A stretch of DNA of 52,411 nucleotides from Aporhodopirellula sallentina SM41 (GTDB lineage Bacteria; Planctomycetota; Planctomycetia; Pirellulales; Pirellulaceae), in NCBI RefSeq assembly GCF_000346505.1, contig NZ_ANOH01000275.1, positions 1-52,411 on the forward strand, in the 5' to 3' direction. Position numbers and translations under genes: made by a program. Positions 17,762 through 47,653 of the stretch are shown piece after piece (the stretch's first letter is position 1; each line of letters starts with the position of its first letter). The notes under the pieces were generated by a model. The model ran no database searches. It saw only the letters and a program-made list of their open reading frames with translations, and was not told the DNA's origin.

Positions 17762-17781
17762 CGAAGTCTTGGCGACTCCGG
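17762..17781 (+). repeat. TTGGC-loop hairpin repeat, copy 1
   Basis: CGAAGTC, loop TTGGC, then GACTCCG: a stem with one mismatch, followed by GCTACG as in several other copies. This is the first of at least fourteen copies in the window. Confidence 0.7.
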
Positions 17782-17810
17782 CTACGTTGGGTTCGGTGTC
17801 GTGGGTGTCG

Positions 17811-17844
17811 TGGGTGTCTGTCCTGGAAAGACAGACCTACGTGG
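17811..17844 (+). repeat. TGGAAAG/CTACGTGG hairpin repeat, copy 1
   Basis: GTCTGTC (17816-17822) pairs with GACAGAC (17830-17836) around CTGGAAA, preceded by TGGGT and followed by CTACGTGG. Related copies are at 23867-23903 and 44111-44146 on the opposite strand. Confidence 0.7.
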
Positions 17845-17851
17845 CGCGCAT

Positions 17852-17883
17852 AAAAAAAGCCACGCTTGGTATTGAGCGTGGCT
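17852..17883 (-). terminator. Rho-independent terminator of the ECF sigma gene
   Basis: On the minus strand AGCCACGCT pairs exactly with AGCGTGGCT around an eight-base loop and is followed by seven T. It lies 30 bp after the sigma factor stop codon. Confidence 0.93.
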
Positions 17884-17912
17884 GAGGTGGATTGTTTGTA
17901 GCGAACGGCGAA

Positions 17913-44471: not shown

Positions 44472-47400
44472 ATGACTCAAATTCGCCAGCGAATCTCTTG
44501 CTCGCTCGCTCTTCCCGCGTTTCTCGCACTCGCGATGCCACTTGCGGTCGCTGTCGTCGGATCGGCCTCGCCGGTTTCGGCTGCCAGCACGCTGCCCGAG
44601 TTCTCGAAGGTTTCCGAGGGATTCGAAAAAGTAGCGGTCTCGGACCAACAGATCGAAAAAGGGTTGTTCAACGTTTGGAAGCGTGAGAAAGACTCCGCGG
44701 TCATCGGCGAACTGCCAAAAAACTTCAAAGGCAAGAGCTACTTCATCGCGCTGACGCTCAGCAGCGGTGACCGGTATGCCGGTTTGCAATCCGGTGACTG
44801 GGTCGTTCAGTGGCGTCGCTACGATAACCGCCTCGCGTTGATCGCACCGAACCTGGACGTTCGCGCGACCGGCGACGCGGAATCCAAAGCCTCGGTGAAA
44901 CGACTCTTCACCGACCGCGTTTTGCTCGACGTACCCATCCTCGCGATCGGTCCCCAAGGCGGCCCGGTAATCGATCTCGACAGCCTATTGGTGGGCAGTG
45001 CCAGCCGTTTCTTTGGCGGATCGGTTCGTGTCACGAACTCGCGTTTGTATACGATCGAATCGTGCAAGGTCTTCCCTAAAAACGTCGAACTCGCGTTCGA
45101 GGTCGTCGGCAGCGGCGGTCGCCTGCAAACGCTGCACTATTCGTTCAGCGAAGTGCCTCGCAGTTCGTCCGGATTCAAACCACGTTTGGCCGATGAACGT
45201 GTCGGGTACTTCACCACCTCGTTTTCGGACCTCAGCAAGTACGATTCCGATGATACTCGGGTGCGTTACATCAACCGATGGAAGCTCGAAAAACGCGACC
45301 CGAAACTCAAACTCAGCCCACCGAAAGAGCCGATCCGTTTTTACGTCGAACACACCGCCCCGGTGCGCTACCGCCGTTGGATCAAGGCCGGGATCGATTA
45401 CTGGAACAAAGCGTTCGAGAAGATCGGAATCGTTGACGCGATCGTGATCGAATACCAAGACGCCGTCAGTGGCATCCACATGGAGAAGGATCCCGAGGAC
45501 GTTCGTTACAACTTTGTACGTTGGCTCAATAACGACGTTGGTACCGCGATCGGCCCGAGCCGCGTGCATCCCGAAACCGGACAGATTCTCGACGCGGACA
45601 TCATCCTGACCGATGGCTGGATCCGTCACTTCAACTTCAACTACGCCGACTTGATGCCGAACCTCGCAATGGAAGGCGTCAGCGCCGAAACGTTGGCGTG
45701 GCTCGGAACGCATCCGAACTGGGACCCGCGTGTTCGCATGGGTGCTCCAGAAAACGTTCACTCGCTGCGTGCCAAGTACGCTCGCCAAGCCACCCAGCCG
45801 ATGGCCGGTTACAAGATGGCGCAGGCCGACCCCTCGATGCTCGGCGACGATGAGTTCGACGGTTTGATCGGACATGTCAGCCAAAAGAACGGCCTGTGCA
45901 TGGCCGCATCGGGTCGCAGCATGGACCTCGCGATGGCCCGCATGAATTGGGCATTGACCCTCAACGCGGACCTCGAAGCCGAGCGCCAAAAGAAGAAGAA
46001 AGCCGAAGAGGACGAAAAGAAAAAGGATGAAGAATCCGCCGAAGACTCCGACGAGAAGAAGGACGGCGATTCGGATTCAGAAAAAGAGTCTGAGGATAAA
46101 AAAGACGGCGATGCCGACGACGACAAGAAGGATGACAAAGACGACGAGGAGGCAGACGACGAAGACGATGACAAGGAAGACGACTCGGCCAAGAAAGAAG
46201 ACGAAGAGCTTCTCGATGGAATGCCGGAGTGGTTTGTCGGACCATTACTCGCCGATTTGGTCGCTCACGAAGTCGGTCACACACTCGGCCTGCGTCACAA
46301 CTTCAAGGCCTCGTCGCTGTACACGATTGCGGAAATTAACGGCGAAGAAGTGAAGGGCAAAAAACCCTTTGCCTCTTCTGTGATGGACTACATGCCGATC
46401 AATTACCGCTACGAAACCGGCGATGTGCAGGGCGACTACGCGATGATCGACATCGGTCCGTATGACTACTGGGCGATCGAGTACGGCTACACGCTGAAGG
46501 ATTCCGACCTCAAAGATATCGTCAAACGATGCTCCGAACCGGAACTGCAATACGCAACCGACGAGGACACCAGCGGTCCGGACCCTTACGCACGCCGATA
46601 CGACTTCGGCAAAGACCCGCTGGAGTACACGAAGGAACAGTCCAAACTGATCAAACTGTATCGTGACCGTTTGCTCGACAAGTTCGTCAAAGACGGCGAC
46701 AGTTGGGCGAAGGCTCGCCGCGGCTACGAGTTGACGCTCGGCCTGCAAATGCGTTCGGTCAGCATGATGGCAAACTGGATCGGTGGCGCGTTCGTCAACC
46801 GTGACAAGAAGGGCGACCCTGGCGACCGCGTTCCGGTTGAAGTCGTACCGGCGAAAGATCAACGAGACGCGTTGAAGTTCGTGATCGACACGAGTTTCCG
46901 TGACGAAGCCTACGGGTTGAAACCTGAAATCCTCGAACGTCTCGGCGTCGACAAATGGCTCGACGGAGGCGGTCATTCGCGGATGTCAGATGAAGCAACC
47001 TGGCCGATTCACGATCGCGTCTTGGACATGCAAGCGTCGACGTTGACCCTGCTGATGAACCCAACCACGCTGCGTCGGGTTTACGACAATGAACTGCGTT
47101 TACCTGAAGACGAAGACGCGTTGACGCTGCCTGAATTGCTCAACGCAGTCACGACGGCCGTTTGGTCAGAACTCGACAATGCGTGCCCGGAAGGTCGTAA
47201 CGATCGCAAACCGATGATCACATCGCTGCGTCGCAACCTCCAACGGGAACACCTGCAACGTTTGGTCGACCTGATCTTGGAAGATTCACCAGGAACGGCA
47301 GCCTACAGCCCGATCAGTAATTTGGCTCGAATGGAATTGCGGACTCTCGCGGCCGCAATGGAATCGACGCTGAAAAAATGCGAAGGCAAGATGGACGCTT

Positions 47401-47528
47401 ACACGTTGGCTCACCTGAGCGAAAGCAAAGAACGAATCCAACGTGCTCTCGAAGCCGGTTACACCTACGGTGGCAAACAAGCCGGCAACGGGATGATGAT
47501 GTTCATCATGGGCGAGCAAACCGAATAG
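44472..47528 (+). CDS. Large secreted zinc metalloprotease (DUF5117/DUF4953-like), 1018 aa
   Basis: ATG 44472 gives a signal peptide (SCSLALPAFLALAMPLAVAV). The N-terminal region matches the DUF5117-type start (SGDRYAGLQSGDWVVQWRRY; LFTDRVLLDVPILAIGPQGG). The catalytic zinc motif is VAHEVGHTLGLRHNF with His599 and Glu600, in a metzincin-like domain that begins near RFYVEHTAPVRYRRWIKAGI. Residues about 503-580, directly before the active site, are a Lys/Asp/Glu stretch of some 75 residues. A helical C-terminal domain completes the protein. The enzyme probably acts in the periplasm or outside the cell; its substrate is unknown. The upstream in-frame ATG 44415 is rejected because the leader fits 44472. 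A bidirectional terminator follows. Confidence 0.92.
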   Translation: MTQIRQRISCSLALPAFLALAMPLAVAVVGSASPVSAASTLPEFSKVSEGFEKVAVSDQQIEKGLFNVWKREKDSAVIGELPKNFKGKSYFIALTLSSGDRYAGLQSGDWVVQWRRYDNRLALIAPNLDVRATGDAESKASVKRLFTDRVLLDVPILAIGPQGGPVIDLDSLLVGSASRFFGGSVRVTNSRLYTIESCKVFPKNVELAFEVVGSGGRLQTLHYSFSEVPRSSSGFKPRLADERVGYFTTSFSDLSKYDSDDTRVRYINRWKLEKRDPKLKLSPPKEPIRFYVEHTAPVRYRRWIKAGIDYWNKAFEKIGIVDAIVIEYQDAVSGIHMEKDPEDVRYNFVRWLNNDVGTAIGPSRVHPETGQILDADIILTDGWIRHFNFNYADLMPNLAMEGVSAETLAWLGTHPNWDPRVRMGAPENVHSLRAKYARQATQPMAGYKMAQADPSMLGDDEFDGLIGHVSQKNGLCMAASGRSMDLAMARMNWALTLNADLEAERQKKKKAEEDEKKKDEESAEDSDEKKDGDSDSEKESEDKKDGDADDDKKDDKDDEEADDEDDDKEDDSAKKEDEELLDGMPEWFVGPLLADLVAHEVGHTLGLRHNFKASSLYTIAEINGEEVKGKKPFASSVMDYMPINYRYETGDVQGDYAMIDIGPYDYWAIEYGYTLKDSDLKDIVKRCSEPELQYATDEDTSGPDPYARRYDFGKDPLEYTKEQSKLIKLYRDRLLDKFVKDGDSWAKARRGYELTLGLQMRSVSMMANWIGGAFVNRDKKGDPGDRVPVEVVPAKDQRDALKFVIDTSFRDEAYGLKPEILERLGVDKWLDGGGHSRMSDEATWPIHDRVLDMQASTLTLLMNPTTLRRVYDNELRLPEDEDALTLPELLNAVTTAVWSELDNACPEGRNDRKPMITSLRRNLQREHLQRLVDLILEDSPGTAAYSPISNLARMELRTLAAAMESTLKKCEGKMDAYTLAHLSESKERIQRALEAGYTYGGKQAGNGMMMFIMGEQTE

Positions 47529-47559
47529 CCCGCCCCGAGCATACTGACCCTGCAAAAAC

Positions 47560-47592
47560 GCCTCCGGAGTCGCAAGACTTCGGAGGCTTTTT
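47560..47592. terminator. Bidirectional terminator between convergent genes (TTGGC family copy 12)
   Basis: GCCTCCGGAGTC (47560-47571), loop GCAA, GACTTCGGAGGC (47576-47587), with AAAAA before and TTTTT after. It can end both the metalloprotease transcript and the FHA-protein transcript. Its core GGAGTC/GACTTC is the TTGGC-type hairpin with a shortened loop. Confidence 0.9.
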
Positions 47593-47597
47593 CGTAA

Positions 47598-47653
47598 CCG
47601 GAGTCGCGTCGACTTCGGTGTTTCTTACGGAGCCGGAGTCGCCAAGACTTCGG
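47598..47653. repeat. TTGGC-loop hairpin repeats, copies 13 and 14
   Basis: CCGGAGTC, loop GCGTC, GACTTCGG (47598-47618) and CCGGAGTC, loop GCCAA, GACTTCGG (47633-47653). With the terminator at 47560 there are three such units in about 95 bp. Confidence 0.8.

Follow-up and report, generated by a model that had tools for sequence, protein, structure and literature searches.

GTAG-tagged palindromes of Aporhodopirellula sallentina and the RAYT transposase that very probably copies them

The dispersed hairpins found between the genes of a 52,411-nucleotide stretch of the Aporhodopirellula sallentina SM41 genome (the whole contig NZ_ANOH01000275.1, G000:C275, hereafter the window; the genome has 8,186,686 bases in 491 contigs) are, very probably, repetitive extragenic palindromes (REPs) of the GTAG-tagged kind. 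Their replicating unit would be the REPIN (REP doublet forming hairpins), copied by a REP-associated tyrosine transposase (RAYT) acting in trans. The hairpins carry the tag, occur as doublets, are numerous in the genome, keep to intergenic sites and flank a RAYT gene; the predicted fold of its product is that of a RAYT, and the loops found near such genes track the relatedness of the enzymes. Recognition, cleavage and mobility would be those published for other RAYTs. A class of dispersed hairpins is thus identified, and the enzyme most likely to copy it named, in phyla with few descriptions of such systems. The RAYT-REPIN system is well-formed and of an already known kind, and the pattern of differences between the two arms of its REPINs is a promising general question.

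In the model we favor, two inverted REPs with their GTAG tags outward make up the unit. By analogy with other RAYTs, the enzyme would recognize the tag together with the folded hairpin and its loop in single-stranded DNA, and would cut there, thereby copying the unit to other intergenic sites. If the enzyme reads tag and loop and the stem only has to pair, this would account for a tag and loop that are nearly fixed and for stems that vary by compensated pairs. The two arms of the REPIN carry different stems (G-C versus C-G at position 6). Some copies would have been adopted into host roles, one of them as a terminator.

The hairpin family in the window and in the genome

Read on the strand that carries GTAG, the usual order is CGTAG, a stem of 8 bp, the loop GCCAA and then the complement of the stem. 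An initial annotation of the window had counted at least fourteen copies, and a hairpin is present at all 14 places by direct reading. A covariance model (R1), whose training set includes 9 of these 14, recovers all of them at 18.3 to 44.5 bits. The loop, described at the time as invariant, is not: it is TTGGC/GCCAA in only 9 of the 14, the others having GCCA (copies at 19574 and 39258), GCCG (34775), GCAA (47559) or three bases (47593). The GCTACG noticed as a 3' flank is the CGTAGC tag read on the opposite strand, and this tag is the defining feature of the family. The stem variants, taken then as one set, mix two families, 6 copies being CGAAA(G/C)TC-like and 8 CCG(A/G)AGTC-like; we call the latter the sister (S) family.

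In the whole genome, R1 finds at least 150 copies (153 matches; REP counts per genome, here and in the genus, are lower bounds). Copies above 36 bits number 4 in 20 sampled stretches (227.6 kb) versus 9 in the 52.4 kb of the window, these 13 being training copies of R1. The density of the sample scales to about 144 copies per genome, and the window is unusually rich. With genes predicted by a home-made hexamer scorer, 3 of 78 copies (a set of 81 minus the three of locus L052) overlap predicted genes, two of them in one same weak prediction, although 87% of the sequence is coding. Of 70 copies with genes on both sides, 34 lie in convergent, 32 in tandem and 4 in divergent gaps, the last making up 28% of intergenic bases.

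The compensated changes that had been claimed for the stems are well above chance. In an alignment of 15 copies, 95.8% of cells pair and 17 are changed on both sides, versus 6.0 in shuffles (0 of 500 as high); with the partner strand slid, at most 5 double-change cells appear. In 41 distinct copies from the same genome, 95.4% of 327 cells pair, double changes occur at 6 of the 8 pairs, and there are 45 double-change cells versus 15.8 in shuffles (again 0 of 500 as high) and at most 8 in the slid control. Because the 41-copy alignment was fitted to the model and the copies are related, the shuffles overstate independence, while the slid controls retain relatedness. The loop, too, exceeds chance: GCCAA closes 12 stems of at least 7 bp in 280 kb of the genome, other permutations of the same bases a mean of 0.72. 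Loop permutations and shuffles rule out chance hairpins, and a known Rfam RNA family is set aside, the window having no match at gathering score. The idea that a folded structure is selected for or copied is thus supported by copy number, covariation, avoidance of genes and the REP-flanked RAYT gene described below. The outcomes named beforehand as contradicting it (fewer than a few dozen copies in the genome, covariation at chance level, or genes as densely populated as the gaps) did not arise.

Left and right arms of one REPIN

Sorted by stem, 99 copies comprise 55 of a left type (CGAAAGTC), 33 of a right type (CGAAACTC) and 11 of the CCGAAGTC type. Exact GTAG is present in 85 (52/55, 25/33 and 8/11, respectively), and the preceding base is C in 53 of the 55 left-type and G in 22 of the 33 right-type copies. 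Eighteen compact doublets have their tags outward, 13 of them spaced at 44 nt. Sixteen are left/right, two are left/left, with stems that are not identical either, and none is right/right; this sample and that of the 41 copies come largely from loci centered on perfect left-type copies (L031-L060), and right/right doublets are under-sampled. Since the partner of a left copy is of the right type in 16 of 18 cases, the variants GAAAGTC and GAAACTC represent the two arms of a single REPIN. None of the 11 CCGRAGTC copies has a partner within 60 nt. REPs with the stem CCGGAGTC flank RAYT genes in other planctomycetes (L159, L161), and a relative, CCGGATTC, adjoins a RAYT gene in the genus genome G004 (L139).

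The window holds a compact REPIN of 70 bp (38876-38945), formed by a right-type REP at 38876-38901 (+ strand; R1 37.7 bits) and a left-arm-like REP with the stem CGAACGTC/GACTTTCG at 38920-38945 (-; 41.1 bits). Left- and right-type REPs also form the ends of two composite islands, as marked below: 19022-19047 (+; 43.3 bits) and 19448-19473 (-; 42 bits) bound the island 19022-19473, and 40478-40503 (+; 44.5 bits) and 40672-40697 (-; 36.6 bits) the island 40478-40697. The S family is represented on the minus strand by copies at 17761-17786 (CCGGAGTC-GCCAA; 40.5 bits), 39258-39282 (loop GCCA; 28.4 bits) and 40361-40386 (CCGAAGTC-GCCAA; 43.7 bits), and by two copies said to start exactly at stop codons, which by the list of open reading frames is true to within a base: 19574-19598 (loop GCCA; 22.3 bits) abuts the stop codon 19599-19601, and 34775-34799 (loop GCCG; 28.7 bits) is one base away from 34801-34803. 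On the plus strand, three CCGGAGTC-type REPs of this family stand downstream of the gene 44415-47528, at 47559-47583 (loop GCAA; 18.3 bits), 47593-47618 (degenerate, with a 3-base loop; 23 bits) and 47628-47653 (CCGGAGTC-GCCAA; 40.4 bits). A weaker match at 17713-17738 (+; 20 bits, E 0.034) is possibly a further, degenerate REP.

Two other repeats may be mentioned. Directly after the REP cluster, at 47687-47750 of the window, a 17-base unit (GCCCAGCTACGAAATCT) containing CTAC, the complement of the tag, is repeated in tandem. Elsewhere in the genome another GTAG hairpin, with the stem CTCGGTCT and the loop TTCCA, occurs in L017 (117-141, 292-316 and 4233-4257) and L028 (4259-4283).

A RAYT gene flanked by the same hairpins

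Y1 genes were searched in the genus with Pfam and with the NCBIfam REP transposase model (NF047646). The RAYT-type transposase that the initial annotation had envisaged is present: a clade of proteins of about 195 residues, with DHxH and YIARNPE motifs, has R1 matches on both sides of its genes in L126 (this genome), L128, L129, L130, L131, L133 and L134. In L126 (G000:C146), the gene occupies 91-681, with R1 matches at 18-43, 70-95, 691-716 and 744-769 around it. In L126, L128, L129 and L130, the RAYT gene uses as its stop codon the TAG within the GTAG tag of the REP downstream. A second RAYT of the same clade (L127, 2-484 and flank; G000:C8), cut by the contig edge, adjoins different GTAG-containing repeats (GTAGCGGACGAGGCGACGAGTCC). 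The three Pfam Y1_Tnp genes of the genome were rejected as partners: L008 is IS200-like, L009 matches Y1 weakly, the repeats flanking L010 are of another type (B, below), and none of the three loci has an R1 match above 20 bits.

H69, H71 and Y130 are invariant in 34 of 34 aligned RAYT relatives, and all 34 match NF047646 below E 0.1; the RAYT of CA13 (L147) scores 40.9 bits, which is below the curated cut-off of 80. AlphaFold2 run on these relatives gave a pLDDT of 91.6, and 4ER8, a RAYT bound to a REP hairpin, was ranked first by both Foldseek and VIA-align 2. Searched by sequence with the same RAYT's profile, the PDB yielded a single match (E 0.27), which is not credible.

Among 40 relatives, this genome (G000) included, 21 match the RAYT alignment, nine with matches above 280 bits. 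RAYTs above 340 bits occur in G000, G002, G004, G005, G010 and G012. These six belong to the nine genus genomes with at least 49 REPs, and none of the four with at most 11 has such a RAYT (chance, worked out by hand, 84/1716 or about 0.05). A wider scan of named genomes gave 204 RAYT relatives, of which the best 80 were kept; by title, these are 27 Planctomycetota, Verrucomicrobia and neighbors, and three just called 'bacterium'. In these best 80 of 204, 26 of the 27 planctomycete genes and 21 of the 53 others have a GTAG or GTGG hairpin no more than 500 bp away; GTAG is also narrowly first in the far flanks of RAYT relatives (22, the next 20). In Rhodopirellula baltica BR-MGV (L153), GTAG hairpins with GTTA or GTCA loops adjoin the RAYT.

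The loops near RAYT genes are mostly GNNA or GNNAA (GTGA 76, GTCAA 57, GCCA 43, GCTA 25, GCAA 18, GTAA 17, GCCAA 16, GTTA 11). For 42 of 52 loci the majority loop agrees with that of the nearest RAYT, as it does for 31 of the 41 loci in which that RAYT is less than 80% identical; these counts cover loci with at least two REPs and free of stops, and loops starting with [GAC][CT]. Common descent of gene and repeat would equally give such sharing. Group 3 RAYTs, according to the part of PMC8266576 consulted, require GTAG, a perfect stem and certain loop bases. Taken with the sharing of loops, this requirement would explain why the loop hardly varies and the stem is free to change as long as it pairs.

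Several observations weigh against a RAYT as the copying enzyme. Movement of a REP or REPIN was not observed, and the partner RAYT of the S family was not found in this genome. The genome's own RAYT scores 31.1 bits with NF047646, short of the curated cut-off, and its nearest relative has a different loop, GTCAA. G001, G007 and G011 have many REPs and no close RAYT, and G008 has a 308-bit RAYT and only 4 REPs. Finally, 35 of the best 80 of 204 RAYT relatives, mostly verrucomicrobial, have no GTAG hairpin within 400 bp.

Relation to known systems

The GTAG REPs described by Di Nocera et al. (2013; text of PMC3733652) share with the present ones a short palindrome (stems of 6-9 bp there) with GTAG at one end, compensated stem variants, dimers with tags outward, a location after genes and the presence of the repeats on either side of RAYT genes. 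That paper credits R. baltica and O. terrae with several GTAG REP families. By the text description, to which this comparison is confined, many of the loops there are TY or CMA, whereas those found here are mostly GNNA or GNNAA. The REPINs of Pseudomonas fluorescens SBW25 (Bertels and Rainey 2011, PMC3116915) are likewise inverted doublets of fixed spacing, able to form one long hairpin and linked to a RAYT; they are described as symmetrical (palindromic), whereas the arms here are usually unlike. The y and z REPs of Escherichia coli and their BIMEs (bacterial interspersed mosaic elements), as treated in the portion of PMC8266576 consulted, are also mosaics of two unlike REPs, and the E. coli RAYT binds single-stranded GTAG hairpins; their stems have a required bulge, whereas the stems here are perfect, as in group 3 systems.

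The subclasses of TnpAY1 of Quentin et al. (2018, PMC6006769) have the same HuH and Y motifs and REP-flanked genes. Table 1 of that paper names Planctomycetes under class 3 only and does not contain the motif set DH[LAIV]H, [FL]Q, YIARNPE. The Trp of the published WQ is replaced by Phe or Leu in most of our sequences, this reading and the match to the W column of the table having been made by eye. These motifs suggest that the clade is an undescribed subclass. Among the papers listed by literature searches, PMC3733652 being compared by its text, none is recognizable as describing this REP family.

Passengers or host RNA elements?

Some copies could instead be carried along inside a larger element with inverted repeats, which has GTGGTGCGTCA at its boundaries and is moved by an unrelated transposase. 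The motif, with at most 3 mismatches, does occur within 60 nt upstream of 19 of the 55 copies of the left type and 11 of the 33 of the right type, against a shuffled rate of 0.06; it lies at exactly 35 nt, the commonest distance for the left type, in 13 copies and at exactly 25 nt, the commonest for the right type, in 8. In the window, reading and motif statistics delimit two such stretches: 38851-38981, between GTGGTGCGTCA and its diverged inverted copy, contains the REPIN, and 40443-40722, between GTGGTGCGTCA and an inverted GTGGCGCGTCA, contains a composite island. However, 58 of the 88 left- and right-type copies have no GTGGTGCGTCA, and doublets without the motif exist, so that it is not needed; joint duplication of a REPIN and its surroundings would equally share flanks. 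We regard this explanation as rather improbable.

Much less credible still is the view that the hairpins are host RNA elements, kept in transcripts as terminators or stabilizers of mRNA 3' ends, their copying by a transposase being incidental. It would fit the preference for convergent and tandem over divergent gaps, the G-U pairs found in stems and the copy already singled out as having become a terminator. The latter is a clear case: at 47560-47587, a 12 bp stem that includes the first of the three REPs downstream of the gene 44415-47528 is followed by TTTTT. But in the region scanned, 47400-47800, only this first REP has a good T run, and neither the tag nor the linkage to a RAYT has a reason under such a view. 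Moreover, the terminator copy is missing from the genus: R1 has no match in 12 of 12 orthologous loci, 9 of which (all except L264, L265 and L267) have, by eye, an unrelated hairpin and T run soon after the stop codon. The absence from all 12 implies either a gain of the REPs in this lineage or their loss from all the other ones. By its sequence, one REP now occupies the terminator's place downstream of this gene. A putatively mobile palindrome would here serve the host, and the 12 relatives that lack it allow a comparison.

Why are the two arms unlike?

In the loci of 87 RAYT genes, stems are identical in 9 of 80 outward pairs (9 of 78 without L179, where two pairs are one hairpin read from both strands) versus 318 of 494 same-orientation pairs, tandem copies inflating both counts. 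Per locus, the identical fraction is 0.13 for outward and 0.64 for same-orientation pairs (35 loci). Setting L179 aside, as in the analyses of folding, position and lower-stem class, the pairs are all unlike in 28 loci, of both kinds in 4 (L131, L134, L161, L202) and all identical in 3 (L133, L146, L157). Because the pair finder accepts paired stems only, part of the self-complementarity follows from the method; the position of the differences does not. In 30 distinct pairs (one per locus, the unlike pair being preferred in the four mixed loci and all loops taken as 5 bases), position 6 differs in 21, and C/G swaps make up 26 of the 51 differences. The longest uninterrupted arm-to-arm run averages 8.7 bp, whereas shuffling of the positions gives 10.5, and none of 2000 shuffles is as low. 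When each lower-stem class is represented by a single pair, an unlike pair being present in 12 of 13 classes, the fraction of shuffles as low averages 0.033. The shuffles ignore the kinship by descent among pairs and loci. Away from RAYT genes, 6 of 6 pairs in G010 are unlike, all at position 6, as are 3 of 5 in G032; the single pair of G011 differs at position 1 only.

The difference may simply reflect what the enzyme reads: lower-stem positions would be recognized and have to agree, and positions 5 and 6, unread, would drift. We would give this explanation about an even chance. Positions 2-4 differ between REPINs at 0.42 to 0.72 and within them at 0.07 to 0.10, and identical arms do exist, in the loci listed above and in 2 of 5 pairs in G032. 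Yet C/G swaps are 26 of 51 arm differences as against 26% of those between REPINs, and in none of the 2000 random placements is the longest arm-to-arm run as short as the one observed. The latter argument receives modest support only, given the shuffle fraction by lower-stem class.

Alternatively, in this planctomycete-verrucomicrobial RAYT clade, selection might hold REPINs as heterodimers whose arms are each perfectly self-complementary but different, the long hairpin or cruciform escaping nucleases such as SbcCD by presenting no more than about 9 bp of uninterrupted duplex. The most frequent difference, the G-C/C-G swap at position 6, would then be the best divider of the arm-to-arm duplex. 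The discussion of heterodimers seen in PMC3733652 finds 'no obvious explanation' for their preference and suggests that unlike arms protect from SbcCD. The position pattern, if the idea is true, would be a sharper form of it and would sharpen the answer on that preference; it opens the prevalence of unlike doublets to a concrete test. We put the idea forward as a doubtful one, because the doublets of this genome were sampled round left-type copies, because mixed loci were entered by their unlike pair and because the three REPINs adjoining the RAYT of G010 (L133), contrary to the rule, have identical arms.

Two further proposals fail. An equilibrium switch against cruciforms is excluded, the arm-to-arm fold being the more stable in 8 of 8 REPINs folded with DNA parameters (-18.7 to -28.7 versus -8.5 to -14.9 kcal/mol for two hairpins), which means that unlike arms shorten the uninterrupted duplex only. 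A universal arm rule is countered by the dimers of P. aeruginosa, which differ at stem residues 12-13, and by those of P. putida, most of which are homodimers, according to the parts of PMC3733652 consulted.

Composite islands

Another palindrome, B (CGTTTAACCGGTAGCCGWAGGCGACG), is found 154 times in the genome when up to 3 mismatches are allowed, and not at all in a reversed control. With 150 listed places of the REPs treated above (A) and 100 of B, an A lies within 600 bp of 39 of the 100 B copies, 2.2 being expected, and the tag of A points away from B in 42 of 45 neighbor links. Twenty-three islands were marked, with outward A on both sides of B in 15, on one side in 7, and B beside a doublet in 1 (window 39080). 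Exact spacings recur among them, as if each composite were copied as a whole. B is accompanied by a further repeat, C, and stands mostly between outward-pointing REPs. The first island of the window, 19022-19473, has B at 19164-19189 and 19248-19273 and C at 19297-19322; between the outward REPs at 40478 and 40672, C is at 40549-40574 and B at 40619-40644; and on the plus strand, outside the REPIN 38876-38945, C is at 39031-39056 and B at 39080-39105.

Inverted pairs of B flank, at both sides, the RAYT-like gene of L010 (1192-1926; motifs PEHTHLVI and YVIENP; NF047646 48.2 bits). The IS200-like gene of L008 (1000-2500; G000:C121) lies between long repeats, among them GGGCCAACGGTCCGG and a series of GCAACTTT units.

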